Assembly: GCA_025916675.1 (NCBI GenBank)
Contig: CP098402.1
Coordinates: 3,467,205 to 3,531,204, forward strand
Reading direction: 5' to 3'
DNA length: 64,000 nucleotides
Source: Phycisphaera sp.
GTDB taxonomy: Bacteria; Planctomycetota; Phycisphaerae; Phycisphaerales; UBA1924
Every line of letters starts with the position of its first letter. Position 1 is the first letter of the stretch. The notes under the pieces are model-generated. The model was not told where the DNA came from. It did no database searches and worked only from the letters and a program-made list of their open reading frames with translations. Positions 1,089-46,774 of this stretch are shown here, one piece after another. The position numbers and the translations under genes were made by a program.

Positions 1089-4000
1089 ATGGATAAGCGT
1101 CTGACCGTCGTTCCCGTTCTGGCCGCCCAGGCCCTGCTCGTCTCGTGTGCCGGGTCGGCCGAGGTGGGCACCAGCGAGCCGGCCCGCATCGTCGCGGTAT
1201 CGGGGCAACCCCTATCGGCCCGCCAGGGCGGCAACCAGGATGGCGGCGACTACGCCGGCATGCTCCGTTACCCCGCCGTCAGCGACGAGCACATCGTGTT
1301 CTCGTACGGCAACGACCTCTGGCTGGTCTCGCGCGATGGCGGCCAGGCCTCGCCGCTGGCGAGCCCCGACGGCCAGGAACTCTTCCCCCGCTTCAGCCCC
1401 GACGGGTCGAGTGTGGTCTTCCAGGGCAACTACGACGGCGACCGCGACCTGTACACGCTGCCCATCGCCGGCGGCGTGCCCAGCCGCGTGACCCACCACC
1501 CCGCCAACGAGGCGCCCACCCAGTGGCACGACTCGGGCATCATGTTCTTCATGAGCGGCACTGCCGGCCTGGGCCGCCAGCAAGAGATCTTCCGCGTCTC
1601 GCCCGAGGGCGGCCTGCCCGAGCGCATGCCGGTGCCCTACGGCGCCAACGGCGTCTTGAATGACGACGGCACCTGGCTGGCCTACACGCCCATCCAGCGC
1701 GACGCGCGCACCTGGAAGCGGTACCGCGGCGGCATGGCCAGCGATATCTGGCTGTTCAACGTCGACACCAACGAGAGCCGCCAGATCACCGACTGGGAGG
1801 GCACCGACAGCCTGCCCATGTGGCACGGCGATTCGCTGTACTACGTCTCGGACGCCGGCGACGACCACCGCCTGAACATCTGGCGTTACGACGTGGGTAG
1901 CGGCGACCGCACACAGGTGACCACCTTCACCGACAACGACGTGAAGTTCCCATCCATCAGCGCGGGCGACGATGGCACCATCGTCTTCAGCCTTGGCAGC
2001 AAGCTCCACCTGCTCGACCTCGATGCGAATGAGGTGAGCGAGGTGCAGGTCACTATCCCCGGCGCGACGCCGGCCGTGCGGACCAAGACCGTCGACGCGG
2101 CCGGATTCCTCCAGGCCGGTGGTATCAGTTCCACTGGCAAGCGTGTCGTGGTCGAGGCCCGGGGCGACATCTGGACCATCCCCGCCGAGAACGGCCCGCC
2201 CCGCCAGCTCACCGACACCAGCCGGTGGGCCGAGCGAAACCCGTCGTGGAGCCCCAGCGGCCGGTGGATCGCCTACGCCAGCGACGAGAGCGGCGAGTAC
2301 AACATCCACGTCATCCAGAGCGACGGCAAGGGCGAGCCCCGCCAGCTCACCGACATGGACGGTAAGTACTGGATGACCATGGCCTGGTCGCCCGACAGCA
2401 AGACGCTCTACGCAGCCGACAAGAGCGGCGAGATGTACCTCATCGACATCGAGAGCGGCGACGCCAACCTCTTCGAGACCGAGCCGTACGCCAACGCGAC
2501 CCAGGTGAGCTGGAGCCCCGACAGCCGATGGATCACCTACGCCAAGGGCGGTGACAACATGCTCACCGCGGCGATCTACATCTACGACACCGAGGATGGC
2601 ACGACCCATCAGGTGACGAGCGGCTTCTTCGGTGACGGCTCGCCAGCCTTTTCGGGCGACGGCGAGTACCTGTTCTATACGTCCAACCGCGAGTTCACCA
2701 GCCCGCAATACGAGGCCGTGGGCGCGAGCTTCATCTACGCCAACGCCGGCCGGCTCATCGCCGTCCCGCTGACCGAAGAGGTCGAGAACCCGCGCCTCAT
2801 CGAGGTTGACGAAGAAACCTGGGAAGAGGACGAGCCCGAAGACGAGGAGGGTGACGAGGCGGATGAGTCGGGTGAGGACACCGCCGACGAATCGGCCGAC
2901 GAGGGTGAGGGTGATGAAGGCGACGACGCCGATGTCGAGCTGAGCCCCATCGAGGGCACCTGGGAAGGCACCGCCACCGGGCTGGCCGCCATGGGCCTGC
3001 CCATGGATGAGCTCGAAGTCACGATGTACTTCATGAAGCTCGAGGACGGCTCGTTCGTCGGTGCCAGCGAGAGCATGGGCGAGCTCTCCGACTACGACAG
3101 CGTCACCTTCGACGAGGACACCGGCAAGCTGGTCACGACCAGCAGCGAGGGTCCGATGAACTCGAAGACCGAGGCCACCCTGAACGGCGACACGCTCACG
3201 GGCACCTGGTCCATCTCGGGCCCGCTCGAGGGCAGCGGCCCCTTTACCGCCACGCGCACCGGCACCGAGGTGCCCGATGGCAAGATCGACGGTGCCGAAG
3301 GCGGCGGCAAGGGCAAGGACGGCAAGGCCGAGCCCGTCGAGATCGACTTCGACGGCTTCGAGGCCCGTGGCTTCATGCTGCCCGTGGGTGCCGGCAGCTT
3401 CAACAACCTCGTGAGCAACGACAAGGGCAACCTGCTCTACAACAGCTTCGGCGGCGGCGCTCCCACGGTGAAGCTCGTCGACATGTCGGGCGACTCCATC
3501 GACGAGAAGACCGTCATCGCGGGTGCCCAGATGATCGAGATCTCGGGCGATGGCAAGAAGATCCTGCTCGCCGGCCAGGGCAACCAGTGGAAGATCGCCG
3601 ATGCGAAGGCCGGCCAGTCGATGTCGGGTTCCATCCAGCCTAGTGGCCTGCGCAAGCACGTCGAGCCGCGTGAAGAGTGGCGCCAGCTTGTGCAAGATGC
3701 CTGGCGCCGCCACCGCGACTTCTTCTACGTCGAGAACATGCACGGCGTCGACTGGGACGCGGTGTACGACCATTACTCCGAGATGGTCGACCATGCCGCC
3801 AGTCGCGAGGACGTCAGCTTCATCATCGGCGAGATGATCTCCGAGCTCAACGTCGGCCACGCCTACTACTGGGGCGGCGACGTCGAGGGCCAGCCCAGCC
3901 AGAACGTCGGCATGCTCGGCGTTGATTTCGAGCTGGCCACCGAGGACGGCGAAGACGGCGAGGCCACCGGCTACCGCATCGCCAAGATGTACGGTGGCGC

Positions 4001-4925
4001 GCCGTGGGATACCGACGCCCGCAACCCGCTCGACGTGCTTGGGATAGACGTCGAAGAGGGCGACTACATCACCCACGTCAACGGCGTGGCGCTCGACACC
4101 TCGACCGATCCCTGGTCGGCCTTCATCGGCACCGCGGGCCAGGAGACGACCATCACCGTCGTCGACAGCCTGACCGGCGACGAGGAAACCGTCAACGAGC
4201 GGACCTACACCATCGAGCCCATCGGCAACGACCAGGCCCTGCGCTACCGCGGCTGGGTCGAGGCAAACCGCCAGTACGTCGAGGAGGCCTCCGACGGCGC
4301 TATCGGCTACATCCACGTCCCCGATACGGGCGTGAACGGGCAGAACGAGCTGTTCCGACAGTTCTACGCCCAGATCGACAAGGACGCCCTCATCATCGAC
4401 GACCGCTGGAACGGCGGCGGTCAGATCCCCACTCGATTCATCGAGCTGCTCAACCGCCCGCGCACCAACTACTGGTACCGGCGCGACGGCAAGGACTGGC
4501 CCTGGCCCTACGACAGCCACCAGGGCCCCAAGGCCATGCTCATCAACGGGTCGGCCGGTTCGGGCGGCGATATGTTCCCATGGCTCTTCAAGCACAACGA
4601 CCTGGGCCCGCTCATCGGCCGGCGCACCTGGGGCGGCTTGGTCGGTATCAGCGGCGTGCCCCCGCTCATCGACGGCGGCTACACCGCCGTGCCCAACTTC
4701 GGCTTCTACCGCACCGACGGCACGTGGGGCATCGAGGGCCACGGCGTCGATCCCGACATGGACGTGATCGATGACCCCACCGCGCTGGCCGGCGGTGAAG
4801 ATCCGCAGATCGACGCGGCCGTGGACTACCTGCTCGAGGCCATCGAGCGTGAGGGCTACGAACGGCCCGAGCGCCCGCAGGAGCCCGACCGCAGCGGCTT
4901 CGGCATCGATCCCGCCGACCGGTAA
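1089..4925 (+). CDS. Tricorn-like protease, exported lipoprotein (S41 family)
   Basis: A 1278-aa homologue of tricorn protease, which degrades peptides. The N-terminus has a lipoprotein signal (LLVSC lipobox), so it is probably exported and membrane-anchored. Residues about 40-570 are beta-propeller-like repeats with TolB-type signatures (SPDG, WSPDS, WSPSGRWIAY). They are followed by an acidic Asp/Glu linker (about 573-617), an extra beta-rich GTWEG... domain (about 620-735), a second partial propeller, and the C-terminal helical, PDZ and S41 protease region. Candidate catalytic residues are His924 (VGHAYY) and Ser1158 in GSAGSGGD. The ATG at 1089 has GGAGG 8 nt upstream; a longer reading from 1047 lacks this. 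The acidic linker and beta insert are unusual for the family. Stand-alone transcription unit. Confidence 0.9.
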   Translation: MDKRLTVVPVLAAQALLVSCAGSAEVGTSEPARIVAVSGQPLSARQGGNQDGGDYAGMLRYPAVSDEHIVFSYGNDLWLVSRDGGQASPLASPDGQELFPRFSPDGSSVVFQGNYDGDRDLYTLPIAGGVPSRVTHHPANEAPTQWHDSGIMFFMSGTAGLGRQQEIFRVSPEGGLPERMPVPYGANGVLNDDGTWLAYTPIQRDARTWKRYRGGMASDIWLFNVDTNESRQITDWEGTDSLPMWHGDSLYYVSDAGDDHRLNIWRYDVGSGDRTQVTTFTDNDVKFPSISAGDDGTIVFSLGSKLHLLDLDANEVSEVQVTIPGATPAVRTKTVDAAGFLQAGGISSTGKRVVVEARGDIWTIPAENGPPRQLTDTSRWAERNPSWSPSGRWIAYASDESGEYNIHVIQSDGKGEPRQLTDMDGKYWMTMAWSPDSKTLYAADKSGEMYLIDIESGDANLFETEPYANATQVSWSPDSRWITYAKGGDNMLTAAIYIYDTEDGTTHQVTSGFFGDGSPAFSGDGEYLFYTSNREFTSPQYEAVGASFIYANAGRLIAVPLTEEVENPRLIEVDEETWEEDEPEDEEGDEADESGEDTADESADEGEGDEGDDADVELSPIEGTWEGTATGLAAMGLPMDELEVTMYFMKLEDGSFVGASESMGELSDYDSVTFDEDTGKLVTTSSEGPMNSKTEATLNGDTLTGTWSISGPLEGSGPFTATRTGTEVPDGKIDGAEGGGKGKDGKAEPVEIDFDGFEARGFMLPVGAGSFNNLVSNDKGNLLYNSFGGGAPTVKLVDMSGDSIDEKTVIAGAQMIEISGDGKKILLAGQGNQWKIADAKAGQSMSGSIQPSGLRKHVEPREEWRQLVQDAWRRHRDFFYVENMHGVDWDAVYDHYSEMVDHAASREDVSFIIGEMISELNVGHAYYWGGDVEGQPSQNVGMLGVDFELATEDGEDGEATGYRIAKMYGGAPWDTDARNPLDVLGIDVEEGDYITHVNGVALDTSTDPWSAFIGTAGQETTITVVDSLTGDEETVNERTYTIEPIGNDQALRYRGWVEANRQYVEEASDGAIGYIHVPDTGVNGQNELFRQFYAQIDKDALIIDDRWNGGGQIPTRFIELLNRPRTNYWYRRDGKDWPWPYDSHQGPKAMLINGSAGSGGDMFPWLFKHNDLGPLIGRRTWGGLVGISGVPPLIDGGYTAVPNFGFYRTDGTWGIEGHGVDPDMDVIDDPTALAGGEDPQIDAAVDYLLEAIEREGYERPERPQEPDRSGFGIDPADR

Positions 4926-4947: not shown

Positions 4948-4971
4948 GCCCGGCTTCATGCCGGGCTTTTT
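4948..4971 (+). terminator. Rho-independent terminator after the tricorn-like gene
   Basis: A 7-bp perfect stem (GCCCGGC/GCCGGGC) with loop TTCAT is followed by TTTTT. It lies 22 nt after the stop codon. Confidence 0.9.
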
Positions 4972-4982
4972 CGTGCGCGCGC

Positions 4983-4988
4983 TACAAT
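4983..4988 (+). promoter_or_regulatory. Candidate -10 box of rimB
   Basis: TACAAT lies 8 nt before the ATG at 4997, which has no Shine-Dalgarno site. It sits directly after the preceding terminator and may give a leaderless or very short leader transcript. Confidence 0.45.
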
Positions 4989-4996
4989 ACACCCCG

Positions 4997-5464
4997 ATGA
5001 CCCCAAAGAACGACACGCAATACACGGTGGGCTGGCGCGAGCGCGTCGCCCTTCCCGAGTGGCGCATCCGTGGCGTGCGTGCCAAGATCGACACCGGTGC
5101 CCGCACCAGCGCCGTACACGTGGCGACCTTCGAACACCTGCCCAACGGCCGCATCCGATTCGAGGTCGTTACCCGCGAGCATCCCGAGCGGCGCACCAAG
5201 TGGATCGAGGCCGACATCGCCCGCGAGTCGGTCGTCAAGCCCAGCAGCGGCAAGACCCAGATCCGCCCGGTCGTGCGCACCACGATGGTCATCGGCCCGC
5301 TCGAGTTCGAGGCCGAGCTGGGCCTGGTCTGCCGCCAGGGCATGCTCTGCCGCATGCTCGTCGGCCGCCGCGCCATCGCCGGGCTGGCCGTGGTCGATCC
5401 CGCAAGCCGCTACCTTCTCTCCCCGCCTTCATCCAAGAACGCCAGGCGAAAGGCCAACCCGTGA
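4997..5464 (+). CDS. rimB: RimB-like retropepsin-type protease (PF05618 family)
   Basis: A 155-aa protein of the family formerly annotated as ATP-dependent zinc protease, now viewed as retropepsin-like aspartic proteases. The hallmark is KIDTGARTSAVH (around residues 31-42), where DTGA matches the aspartic-protease motif. In pseudomonads, rimA-rimB-rimK act together in modification of ribosomal protein S6. Here it precedes rimK, and its stop TGA overlaps the rimK GTG start (GTGA at 5461-5464), suggesting translational coupling. The ATG at 4997 is preferred over an upstream ATG at 4958 because that one falls inside the terminator hairpin. Substrate and activity here are inferred from family and neighbourhood. 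Confidence 0.82.
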   Translation: MTPKNDTQYTVGWRERVALPEWRIRGVRAKIDTGARTSAVHVATFEHLPNGRIRFEVVTREHPERRTKWIEADIARESVVKPSSGKTQIRPVVRTTMVIGPLEFEAELGLVCRQGMLCRMLVGRRAIAGLAVVDPASRYLLSPPSSKNARRKANP

Positions 5465-6669
5465 AATTTGCCATCCTGTCCACCGCCCCCAAGTGCTACA
5501 GCACCCGCCGCTTCAAGCAGGCCGCCGAGGCCCGGGGGCACAAAGTCAAGGTCCTCAACACGCTGCGTTTCTCCATCGACCTGGAGCACGGCGAGCCCAG
5601 CCTGTTCTATCGCGGCAAGGAGCTGAGCGACTACGACGCCATCCTGCCGCGCATCGGCGCGTCGATCACCTACTTCGGCACCGCGGTCGTCCGCCAGTTC
5701 GAGCAGCTCGACGTCTACACGCCCAACACCGCCAACGGCATCCTCAACTCGCGAGACAAGCTCCGCAGCCTGCAGATCCTCAGCCGCCACGACATCGGCA
5801 TCCCGCACTCGTGCTACATGCGCAACCAGCTCGACGTGCTGCCCGCCATCGAGCGCATCGGCGGGGCCCCGGTCATCATCAAGCTCATCGAGGGCACCCA
5901 GGGCGTGGGCGTCATCCTGGCCGAGAGCAACAAGGTCGCCGAGGGCATCATCGAGACGCTCCAGAGCGCCAAGCAGAACGTGCTGGTGCAGAAGTTCGTG
6001 GCCGAGAGCAAGGGCAAGGACGTGCGCGCCCTTGTCGTGGGCGAACGCGTCGTCGCCGCCATGCGCCGCGTGGCCCAGGGCCAGGAGTTCCGAAGTAATG
6101 TCCACCGCGGCGGCCGGACCGAGCCGGTCGAACTCGACGAGACCTACCAGAAGGCCGCCGTGCGCGCCGCCCAGATCATGGGCCTGCGCGTCGCCGGCGT
6201 CGACCTGCTCGAGAGCAACGACGGCCCCCAGGTGATGGAGGTGAATTCCTCGCCCGGCATGGAGGGCATCGAGGGCTGCACCGGCCTGGACATCGCCGGC
6301 TCCATCGTCGATTACATCGCCAACCAGGTCGATTTCCCCGAGATCGACATCCGCCAGCGGCTCACCGTCAGCGTGGGCTACGGCGTCGCCGAGATCTACA
6401 TCCCCGAGGGCTCGGACTTCGTCAGCAAGACCATCGCCGAGTCGGGCCTGCGCGAGCGGGACCTCACCGTGCTCACCGTCAATCGGGGGACAGCCGTGTT
6501 CTCGAACCCTAAGGGCAGCCGCGCCCTCGAGGCTGGCGACCGGCTGCTGTGCTACGGCAAGCTCGAGACCATGCGCGACCTGGTGCCCGAACGGACGAAG
6601 CGCAAGAAGAAGCCCCGCGTGGCCAAGCTCGACAAGAGCCTGGTCGACGCCCTGGAGAATGGCCAGTGA
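5461..6669 (+). CDS. rimK: RimK-family ATP-grasp L-glutamate ligase fused to a TrkA-C (RCK_C) domain
   Basis: A 402-aa protein. Residues 1 to about 300 match RimK, the ATP-grasp ligase that adds glutamates to ribosomal protein S6: an N-terminal pre-ATP-grasp domain, RDKLRSLQIL, the substrate-binding EGTQGVGVIL, and the metal-binding end VMEVNSSPGMEGIE. RimK enzymes are about 300 aa; this one continues with about 75 residues (304-378) resembling a TrkA-C/RCK_C domain (IYIPEGSDFVSKTIAESGLR, then RALEAGDRLLCYG) and a basic tail. RCK_C domains bind small regulatory ligands in K+ transport proteins. The GTG start at 5461 overlaps the rimB stop. The domain fusion is clear in the reading frame; its regulatory meaning is inferred. 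Confidence 0.88.
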   Translation: MKFAILSTAPKCYSTRRFKQAAEARGHKVKVLNTLRFSIDLEHGEPSLFYRGKELSDYDAILPRIGASITYFGTAVVRQFEQLDVYTPNTANGILNSRDKLRSLQILSRHDIGIPHSCYMRNQLDVLPAIERIGGAPVIIKLIEGTQGVGVILAESNKVAEGIIETLQSAKQNVLVQKFVAESKGKDVRALVVGERVVAAMRRVAQGQEFRSNVHRGGRTEPVELDETYQKAAVRAAQIMGLRVAGVDLLESNDGPQVMEVNSSPGMEGIEGCTGLDIAGSIVDYIANQVDFPEIDIRQRLTVSVGYGVAEIYIPEGSDFVSKTIAESGLRERDLTVLTVNRGTAVFSNPKGSRALEAGDRLLCYGKLETMRDLVPERTKRKKKPRVAKLDKSLVDALENGQ

Positions 6670-7745
6670 AGCAGCGCATGGGCGTGCTCTCGTGGACCGA
6701 CCTGGACGTTCCGCCGAACGGCAACAAGGAAGGCCGGCTGGTCGTCTCGGAGAGCTATGTCGGGGCCGATCTCGCGATCCCCTTCAGCGTCTGGCGTGGC
6801 AAGCGAGACGGGCCTGCCGTCTTCATTACCGCCGCCGTGCACGGCGACGAGATCAACGGCACCGGCGCCATCCGCCACATTCTGATGAACTGGCCGTTCT
6901 CGCTCTCGGCTGGCACGCTCGTCATGGTTCCCGTGGTGAACCTCATGGGCTTCGAGCGCAACAGCCGCTACCTGCCCGACCGGCGCGACCTCAACCGCAG
7001 CTTCCCCGGCTCGCCCCGCGGTAGCCTGTCGGCCCGATTGGCGCACGCCATGTTCGAGGGCCTGGTCAAGCCCTGCCAGTACGGCATCGACCTGCACACC
7101 GCCGCTGTCCGCCGCACCAACTTTCCCAACGTCCGCGCCAATTTAAGCGATCCGGTGATCGCGGAGTTCGCGCGGGCGTTCGGAGCCGAGTTGACCGTCG
7201 ACAACAAGGGGCCCGAGGGCTCGCTCCGCGCCGCCGCGTGCGACGCGGGTGTGCCCACGCTCATCCTCGAGGCCGGCGAGGTCTGGAAGGTCGAGCCGAC
7301 CTATGTCGAGCACGCCGTCCGTGGCATCCGCAACTGCCTCATCCATCTGGGCATGGTTGAGGGCGAGCCCGAGAAGCCCGCCTACCGCATCGAGGCGGAT
7401 TCGTCCAAGTGGGTGCGCGCCGAGAACGGCGGCTTCCTGAGCTTCCACGTCGCGCCCGGAGATTTCGTGAACAAGGGCGACCCCATCGCCACCAACACCG
7501 ACCTGCTGGGCAACGAGCAGAACGTGATCGAAGCCCCGCAATCGGGCGTCGTCCTGGGTATGACCACGATACCCAGCGTCGCGCCGGGCGACCCAATCTG
7601 CCACGTCGCCTTCCCAACCAGCCGGGCCTTGCAAAAAGCCGAGGCAGCCCAGGACAAGCTGGCCGGCCATCACCTGCACGAGCGCACGCGGGAAGACCTC
7701 TCGCGCAACATGCACCTGAGCGATGCTCCCGAGGCGCGTGAGTGA
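6666..7745 (+). CDS. Succinylglutamate desuccinylase/aspartoacylase-family metallohydrolase
   Basis: A 359-aa zinc carboxypeptidase-like enzyme (AstE/AspA family) that would hydrolyse an N-acyl amino acid or a related amide. The zinc site is HGDE (His59, Glu62) and GIDLHTAA (His144); DLNRSFPG is the family's substrate-binding motif. The C-terminal third (GFLSFHVAPGDFVNKGDPIA onward) resembles a barrel-sandwich lipoyl/biotinyl-like domain. The GTG at 6666 overlaps the rimK stop (GTGA) and has GGAG at 6654-6657; an ATG at 6678 has no such site. Its coupling to rimB-rimK suggests a shared pathway, perhaps trimming or recycling of glutamyl products, but the true substrate is unknown. Confidence 0.83.
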   Translation: MKQRMGVLSWTDLDVPPNGNKEGRLVVSESYVGADLAIPFSVWRGKRDGPAVFITAAVHGDEINGTGAIRHILMNWPFSLSAGTLVMVPVVNLMGFERNSRYLPDRRDLNRSFPGSPRGSLSARLAHAMFEGLVKPCQYGIDLHTAAVRRTNFPNVRANLSDPVIAEFARAFGAELTVDNKGPEGSLRAAACDAGVPTLILEAGEVWKVEPTYVEHAVRGIRNCLIHLGMVEGEPEKPAYRIEADSSKWVRAENGGFLSFHVAPGDFVNKGDPIATNTDLLGNEQNVIEAPQSGVVLGMTTIPSVAPGDPICHVAFPTSRALQKAEAAQDKLAGHHLHERTREDLSRNMHLSDAPEARE

Positions 7746-45888: not shown

Positions 45889-46774
45889 CGGAGCCGTCCT
45901 TGGGCGCAGGGGCGTCGCTGGCCTGTTGCTTGCGGGCCTCCTCGGCGGTCGAGGGTCGATCGGGCAGCTCCTTGGTCAGGCCGGCCATCATGGCTCGCCG
46001 GAGCTCCTCGGGCGTCATGGGGTCGGTCAGTTTGCCGCGCTCGGCGATGCGGATGCTGCCGGTCTCTTCGCTCACGATGACTACCAGGGCGTCACACTCG
46101 CGAGAGATGCCCACGGCCGCCCTGTGGCGAGAGCCCAGGCCCGCGTCGGGCATGTCGGCGGCACCAGCGAGCGGGAGTTGCACGCCAGCCGCGTGGACGA
46201 TCGGGCCCTTGATGATGACCGCCAGGTCGTGCAGGGCCGTGCCGGGGAAGAACAGGCTCTGGAGCAATCGGGCGCTGACCTCGGCCCCCAGGCGGGTGCC
46301 GCCCTCGGCCAAGCCGCCCAGGGCGGTGCGTCGCTCCATCACGATCAGGGCCCCGAACTTGGCCTTCTGGAAGTAGCTGCACGCCTCGACCACCGCGTCG
46401 ACCACCTGGGCGATCTCGCCCGGCGTGCTGCGGAAGATCGGGGCTTCACCCAGCCGGGTGAGCGCCCGGCGGAGCTCGGGCTGGAAGACGACCACCAGAC
46501 CGATGGCCACGACCACGCCCGCCCGATCCAGCAGGTAGCCAAGCCGCTCGAAGGCCTCCTCGCGGCCGACCAGGGACAGGAACAGCCGGGCCGCCAGCCC
46601 GATGAGCAGCAGGGCCACCAGGCCCTTCATCACGCCCGCGGCCCGGGTGCCCTCGATGAACCGGATGATGGCCCAGACCACCAACGCGATGAGCGCAAGC
46701 TCGAGGGCGACCTCCCACCACGGGTAGCCGTCCATGCGCTTGAGCGCGTCACCAATAGCGATCGCCAGGTCCAC
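45881..46774 (-). CDS. cdaA: CdaA-type diadenylate cyclase with altered DGA motif
   Basis: A 297-aa protein with three N-terminal TM helices (residues about 20-100) and a DAC domain that condenses two ATP to c-di-AMP. The nucleotide-binding RHR motif is intact (LGSRHRAAVGIS, Arg216-Arg218) and VSEETGSI is present. The metal-binding DGA motif, normally LHDGAVII, reads LHDLAVII: Asp183 is kept but Gly becomes Leu184. The effect on activity is unknown. The start is GTG at 46774 after a GGGGTG tract. The C-terminus is an Ala/Glu/Lys-rich tail. cdaR follows with an 8-nt overlap. Confidence 0.88.
   Translation of the reverse strand: MDLAIAIGDALKRMDGYPWWEVALELALIALVVWAIIRFIEGTRAAGVMKGLVALLLIGLAARLFLSLVGREEAFERLGYLLDRAGVVVAIGLVVVFQPELRRALTRLGEAPIFRSTPGEIAQVVDAVVEACSYFQKAKFGALIVMERRTALGGLAEGGTRLGAEVSARLLQSLFFPGTALHDLAVIIKGPIVHAAGVQLPLAGAADMPDAGLGSRHRAAVGISRECDALVVIVSEETGSIRIAERGKLTDPMTPEELRRAMMAGLTKELPDRPSTAEEARKQQASDAPAPKDGSDA

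Follow-up and report, generated by a model that had tools for sequence, protein, structure and literature searches.

The window, that is, the whole 64,000-nucleotide stretch of Phycisphaera sp. DNA analysed here, carries three consecutive genes on the forward strand: one encoding a RimB-like retropepsin (4958–5464; Pfam Zn_protease, PF05618, 90.1 bits), a GTG-initiated frame of 402 amino acids encoding a RimK-family alpha-L-glutamate ligase with a C-terminal RCK_C domain (5461–6669), and one encoding an AstE/AspA-family zinc hydrolase with a likely GTG start (6666–7745; PF24827, 125.6 bits). The rimB stop overlaps the rimK start within GTGA at 5461–5464, and the rimK stop overlaps the likely hydrolase start within GTGA at 6666–6669, which suggests translational coupling of the three genes. 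A RimB-type retropepsin thus lies beside RimK, the arrangement that characterizes RimABK, and because it scored 92 bits against the 200 needed for NCBIfam RimB, the protein is regarded as a relative rather than the equivalog. Among loci with RimK fused to RCK_C (hereafter fused), rimB was found in at least 89 of 131 and an AstE/AspA gene in at least 70 of 131, some of these loci ending early; at loci of RimK without the domain (short RimK), the corresponding counts were 34/40 and 28/40.

Upstream on the same strand, a gene for a tricorn-type protease (1089–4925) ends 32 bases before rimB, and its product is highly acidic over the 40 residues that start at residue 574 (26 D/E). A 565-aa K+ channel with Ion_trans_2, two TrkA_N and two TrkA_C stretches is encoded on the reverse strand at 1–886 and runs on outside the window to G000:C1:3466393. 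Located approximately 4.6 kb before rimK and divergent from the tricorn–rim genes, it was the sole ion gene seen near the operon, and the MscS, CorA, and MgtE profiles described below had no match anywhere in the 64-kb window. The channel was rejected as a conserved partner of rimK, as a partial relative (49% identity, 199-aa frame) was found near rimK only in one other locus, L216.

Domain architecture of the RimK protein

The catalytic part occupies residues 1–290 (5461–6330, forward strand as for all parts of the frame), with Pfam matches to Rimk_N (residues 1–94) and the RimK ATP-grasp domain (residues 98–286; 197.1 bits, cut-off 21). The protein belongs to the RimK family of alpha-L-glutamate ligases by TIGR00768 (246.6 bits, cut-off 143.4), and its score for PRK10446, the S6--L-glutamate ligase equivalog, lies below the cut-off (318.9 bits, 331 needed). 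Residues K100, K141, E144, R203, D248, E260, and N262 were identical in all 130 fused and 42 short RimK rows aligned, and those other than K141 are presumably catalytic positions with roles as in ATP-grasp enzymes. Since the catalytic positions are identical across all 130 fused rows, an active ligase is to be expected. K141 is given as an ADP contact of RimK in PMC10092738.

After a linker at residues 292–306 (6334–6378), the frame continues with a TrkA_C/RCK_C domain at residues 309–374 (6385–6582), which was recognized by Pfam, fold, and sequence profile. TrkA_C (PF02080) scored 38.4 bits in the whole protein (cut-off 27, E = 1.2e-9) and gave E = 1.9e-10 when the C-terminal piece was searched alone. 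Residues 377–402 (6589–6666) form a basic tail that recurs across the fused form, 112 of 129 scored fused proteins having at least 6 K/R at positions 9–30 after the LLCFG motif. The preliminary description had placed a TrkA-C-like domain and a basic tail within 6361–6669, and both are confirmed, the former by an HMM match above the cut-off together with its fold, so that a sensor fusion is plausible, and the latter as a real and recurrent feature. Within the fused group, mean pairwise identity was 74.5% in the catalytic part, 58% in the RCK_C domain, and 31% in the tail, and the linker was strongly conserved, with 10 of its 15 columns at least 90% conserved compared with 17 of 68 columns in the RCK_C domain.

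Fold and conservation of the RCK_C domain

A Foldseek search with the full-length model returned solely RimK-type proteins among the 50 matches listed, and the domain was therefore modelled alone by AlphaFold2 from 55 homologues (mean pLDDT 78, with the first ten and the last residues poor). The predicted structure matched the RCK domain of MthK in the PDB (E = 1.4e-5, TM 0.70 by query), together with KhtT with c-di-AMP, TM1088, KtrC, and the RCK_C domain of BusR, in agreement with the preliminary assignment. A sequence profile of the 55 homologues likewise found KtrA (3.4e-5) and MthK (7e-5). TAL-effector matches were taken as repeat artefacts, with no stretch passing.

The most conserved positions of the domain (R342, P350, D360, and G366) belong to the generic turn and core, and no conserved polar rim was seen in the alignment of fused rows. 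When the BusR pocket (polar rim 157/160, Ala164, and Pro181), as described in PMC8517857, was placed on the domain by eye rather than by a residue-level structural alignment, only the proline appeared clearly common (seemingly P350), the polar rim apparently having no conserved counterpart. The segments covered by this by-eye placement (residues 320–338 and 347–351) had a conservation of 0.58–0.63, compared with 0.60–0.65 in the rest of the domain.

Distribution of the fused form

The preliminary description had regarded the fusion as a notable planctomycete feature. A scan of named genomes, queried with a 28-row alignment to which the window's protein and 27 further loci contributed (L025 and L035 were omitted from a total of 29), yielded at least 589 relatives, and all of the best 80 that were kept carry the C-terminal extension, although the frame of one (L090) is broken upstream of it. 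Its presence in every one of them shows that the fusion did not arise by chance in the window. Part of these 80 belong to isolates or complete genomes (Planctomycetota, Gammaproteobacteria, Actinomycetota, and Desulfobacterota), and the others to metagenome-assembled genomes (MAGs), some of them labelled Chloroflexi (Caldilineaceae), Acidobacteria, or Rhodothermales, labels that may be wrong; in the 79 rows other than L090, identity to the window's protein was 65–75%. The fused form is hence cosmopolitan across several phyla, and a planctomycete-specific fusion is ruled out. Because similarity to the query decided which relatives were among the best 80, they reveal that the fused form is widespread and say nothing of its being commoner. 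In a set of 274 gammaproteobacterial genomes, RimK was detected in 120 (E 1e-60) and the fused form in 3, and in the order of Microbulbifer the fused form was present in 17 of 194 genomes. Two fused copies were observed in each of three planctomycete genomes (L039/L163, L063/L164, and L101/L165).

In the window's own order, 55 of 201 genomes had a match at E 1e-20 and 146 had none, indicating that the function is dispensable. Matches reached at least residue 374 at 42 places in 41 genomes, although those of G025 and G046 are interrupted by a stop, and a 43rd fused place was split across two contigs (G170). Two further genomes had RimK-like proteins without the domain (G082, 51% identity; G066, 46%), and the remaining matches were ATP-grasp relatives with 27–38% identity.

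Relationship of fused and short RimK

For the comparison of both forms, the 130 fused rows included the window's protein twice (as the window and as L236) and excluded L090 and L157, while the 42 short rows comprised 40 gammaproteobacterial proteins, drawn from the upper part of the RimK list on contigs with room for a flank, and two from the window's own order. In pair samples, the catalytic parts of fused and short RimK were 53% identical (45–58%), versus 74.5% within either group, and in a quick tree of residues 1–290 (66 fused rows, approximately every second one, and the 42 short rows) a single branch with an SH-aLRT support of 100 separated the two. Position 178 (5992–5994) was E in 40 of 42 short rows, whereas 117 of the 130 fused rows had K or R there, and position 251 (6211–6213) was R in approximately 95% of the 42 short rows and E in all 130 fused rows, possibly amounting to a reversed salt bridge. 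Given that E178 is an ADP contact in Pseudomonas RimK, as stated in PMC10092738, the K/R of the fused rows suggests that their nucleotide use or kinetics may differ, and the reciprocal charge change might have altered the nucleotide or substrate preference. Collectively, these sequence comparisons indicate that the fused form is a discrete, cosmopolitan RimK subfamily that acquired RCK_C apparently once.

Second RimK copies, ribosomal protein S6, and c-di-AMP

Thirty genomes, all with the fused form, were hand-picked, mostly as named organisms, from the best 80 of the at least 589 loci. Eleven of them also contained a RimK whose match stops at residues 287–295, before the domain, and three contained two fused copies. 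Six of these 11 second RimK proteins were inspected, of which two (both from Microbulbifer) were RimB–RimK hybrids and four were separate short genes; with the other five judged by their match and frame length (308–334 aa), the tally was nine separate genes and two hybrids. The hybrids (L300 and L301; 475–476 aa) occur in Microbulbifer in addition to an RCK_C-fused RimK. The suggestion that the domain replaces the c-di-GMP link of Pseudomonas RimK by a different sensor is ruled out by these domain-free copies.

RimK is usually discussed as a ribosome-modifying enzyme, and S6 had been assumed as the target in the preliminary description. An S6 match was obtained in 29 of the 30 genomes, of which 13 end in Glu, and six actinobacterial S6 proteins (from Knoellia, Phycicoccus, and two Nocardioides) are tail-less, ending 93–94 residues after the start of the match. 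The S6 of the window's own genome has an acidic tail that ends in STEPANA and so lacks the terminal Glu expected of an S6 ligase substrate. Judging from these termini, S6 is a doubtful target of the fused RimK, and PMC11957791 likewise reports that some RpsF lack a terminal Glu and allows for further functions of RimK. The separation of an RCK_C subfamily that often occurs with a second RimK or a tail-less S6 implies that some supposed S6 ligases may act otherwise.

With respect to c-di-AMP, which had been put forward as the general signal, 16 of the 46 genomes with fused RimK were seen to encode its synthase (DAC), and in the other 30 no such gene was found (drafts may miss genes); none was detected in 27 gammaproteobacterial genomes with fused RimK, in Desulfoluna, in one Microbacterium, or in Schumannella, with the same caveat for drafts. 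RCK_C identity was 0.598 between 16 DAC-positive and 14 DAC-negative loci, compared with 0.616 and 0.647 within the two sets, and the consensus sequences of both sets were very alike. Since the domain is similarly conserved without DAC, c-di-AMP is unlikely to be what maintains it and is an unlikely common ligand of the fused form. The window's genome itself encodes DAC inside the same window (46028–46387, reverse strand, 125.2 bits), and c-di-AMP may therefore have a local role.

Ion-related genes around rim loci

Of 322 open frames in the neighbourhood, 271 were scanned with Pfam after manual removal of the others. Among the neighbour families listed, CBS/MgtE, CorA, mechanosensitive channels, and Na/Ca exchangers were the most repeated, and SIR2, LysR, and radical SAM occurred three times each. 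In the flanks of the best 80 of the at least 589 loci, the recurrent clusters other than rimB and AstE/AspA included MscS (9 loci), CorA (6), and MgtE (5); an ABC ATPase (7), LysR regulators (6), an aminotransferase (5), and several more clusters recurred as well. Profiles of MscS, CorA, and MgtE were built from the clusters of these 80 discovery loci and then run on other loci, all sets except the discovery loci being regarded as held-out (L157 was removed as a copy of L071), and on 60 control regions at manually chosen positions in these genomes or in related ones.

Within approximately 5 kb on each side, at least one of the three families was present at 27 of 130 fused loci and 12 of 40 short gammaproteobacterial loci, compared with 0 of 60 control regions (Fisher test against controls, P = 1.4e-5 and 5.3e-6, respectively). 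By set, matches were obtained at 7 of 18 loci of fused Gammaproteobacteria and second copies, 5 of 32 from the own order, and 15 of 80 in the discovery set, and at neither of the two short RimK loci of the own order. Once relatives were merged at 80% identity, ion genes were still present in 5 of the 17 clusters of fused loci, a count that takes in the discovery loci (P = 3e-4 versus controls), and in 7 of the 15 clusters of short loci (P = 3e-6 versus controls). At the 40 short loci (L166–L205), CorA was near eight and MscS near four. Several loci showed direct adjacency, including a rimK–corA–mscS run on one strand in a MAG (L108), mscS directly 3' of rimK in three Microbulbifer and two further loci, and mgtE directly 5' of rimK in L071.

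The frequency of ion genes did not differ between fused and short loci (Fisher two-sided, P = 0.28), so that the neighbourhood supports an ion-related role of the rim system in general rather than RCK_C as an ion sensor. Its use as proof of an ion-sensing domain was dropped, as short loci were expected to lack such genes, yet 12 of 40 have them. The ion-gene link thus looks like a general feature of rim loci and points to a role of these loci in salt and osmotic balance.

Proposed function and alternatives

Ligand input is the usual role of RCK_C domains, and by analogy we infer that RCK_C adds such an input to RimK. The reading we favor, with a rough probability of 0.45, is that this ligase with its RCK_C domain would be an ion- or osmotically controlled poly-alpha-glutamate ligase, for which we infer the ligand, the product, and the direction of control; the sequence analysis itself establishes the domain, its fold, the subfamily, the operon, and the ion genes around rim loci. 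The ATP-grasp part would add L-glutamate to a growing alpha-linked chain, which could be free poly-alpha-glutamate or could extend the C-terminus of an acidic protein, either instead of S6 or in addition to it. RCK_C domains pair via faces, and the domain would hence most likely join RimK subunits two by two; a ligand tied to ionic strength or turgor, such as a divalent cation or a nucleotide possibly differing by lineage, could then bind at the pair interface and move the subunits. The conserved linker may relay this movement to the ATP-grasp part, while the basic tail may hold the polyanionic chain. The retropepsin would trim glutamate chains, with the AstE/AspA-like hydrolase probably completing their breakdown, and the cell would thereby have a pool of polyanion, or protein tails with added charge, tuned to its ion state.

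In published work, RimB stimulates RimK to make poly-alpha-glutamate in vitro and cuts polyglutamate, and RimK makes poly-alpha-glutamate in vivo (PMC11957791); RloA, which are secreted RimB relatives, function in surviving hypo-osmotic stress (PMC12239564); and among sister groups, brackish genomes carry rimK (K05844) more often than marine ones (PMC10219603). Together with the ion-gene neighbourhood, this literature makes osmotic or ionic balance the likeliest setting. A more specific version, improbable as it stands, would be a polyanion osmotic system in which the fused RimK responds to a cation, or to a ligand linked to turgor, by making poly-alpha-glutamate as a tunable counter-charge store instead of a ribosome mark, the store being emptied by the retropepsin and the hydrolase and operating alongside MscS, CorA, and MgtE.

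Pseudomonas RimK is a tetramer in crystals, and the strongest rival to ligand control, itself rather unlikely, is that RCK_C merely serves as a dimerization module fixing the oligomer without a regulatory ligand. This would agree with the generic nature of the top-conserved positions, with the polar rim not being seen conserved, and with the RCK_C domain of BusR, which is dimeric without ligand (PMC8517857), whereas the strongly conserved linker is not explained by dimerization itself and the would-be pocket segments, conserved about like the rest of the domain, weigh little either way. RCK_C might otherwise serve some other, non-regulatory purpose, for example docking RimK on RimB, on the RCK ring of a channel, or on the ribosome, while the basic tail binds RNA or polyglutamate. 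The recurrence of that tail (112 of 129), the ion-channel genes near rim loci, and the RimB–RimK interaction in Pseudomonas (PMC11957791) speak for docking, but rimB also stands beside domain-free RimK at 34 of 40 short loci, so that docking of RimB does not need RCK_C, and we regard this explanation as distinctly unlikely. Least probable in our judgment is the reading of the preliminary description, in which RCK_C would place S6 glutamylation under c-di-AMP or another nucleotide: the c-di-AMP-binding KhtT and BusR are among the best matches of the predicted structure and the own genome encodes DAC, but 30 of 46 genomes with fused RimK, some of them drafts, were without DAC while their domain was similarly conserved, the S6 termini (13 of 29 Glu-ended, six actinobacterial ones tail-less, the own one ending in EPANA) fit poorly, and 11 of 30 genomes have a domain-free RimK as well.

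Comparison with known systems

No description of a RimK–TrkA_C/RCK_C fusion or of an ion-gene neighbourhood of rim loci was found in the accessible portion of the open-licence literature searched. If the polyanion reading is true, an amide-bond-forming enzyme would be gated directly by a potassium-channel sensor domain, a combination of which we know no other case. Furthermore, the association between rim loci and genes for mechanosensitive channels or magnesium transporters, present at held-out loci and in 0 of 60 controls, provides a testable osmotic or ionic setting for poly-alpha-glutamate formation by RimK and RimB.

The whole predicted catalytic part resembles RimK of Pseudomonas and E. 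coli (7qyr, 7qys, 5zct, 4iwx; PRK10446), with 44–50% identity in the structural alignment and TM values of 0.90–0.96 by target, but these enzymes lack the C-terminal domain of the window's RimK. That domain shares the fold and the RG...P...GD core with the RCK_C domains of MthK, KtrA/KtrC, KhtT, and BusR, whereas here it is attached to a ligase with no RCK_N partner in the protein, and the loop leading from its helix to the strand has one residue fewer than that of KtrA and MthK. BusR, a GntR regulator with RCK_C, likewise carries the domain outside a transporter, in a protein controlling the osmotic state (PMC8517857); it binds c-di-AMP and controls a glycine-betaine transporter, whereas here the domain sits on an enzyme for which c-di-AMP is an unlikely common ligand. 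As in RimABK of Pseudomonas fluorescens, a RimB-type retropepsin adjoins RimK, and, unlike in that system, the operon described here includes an AstE/AspA partner and a RimK bearing RCK_C.
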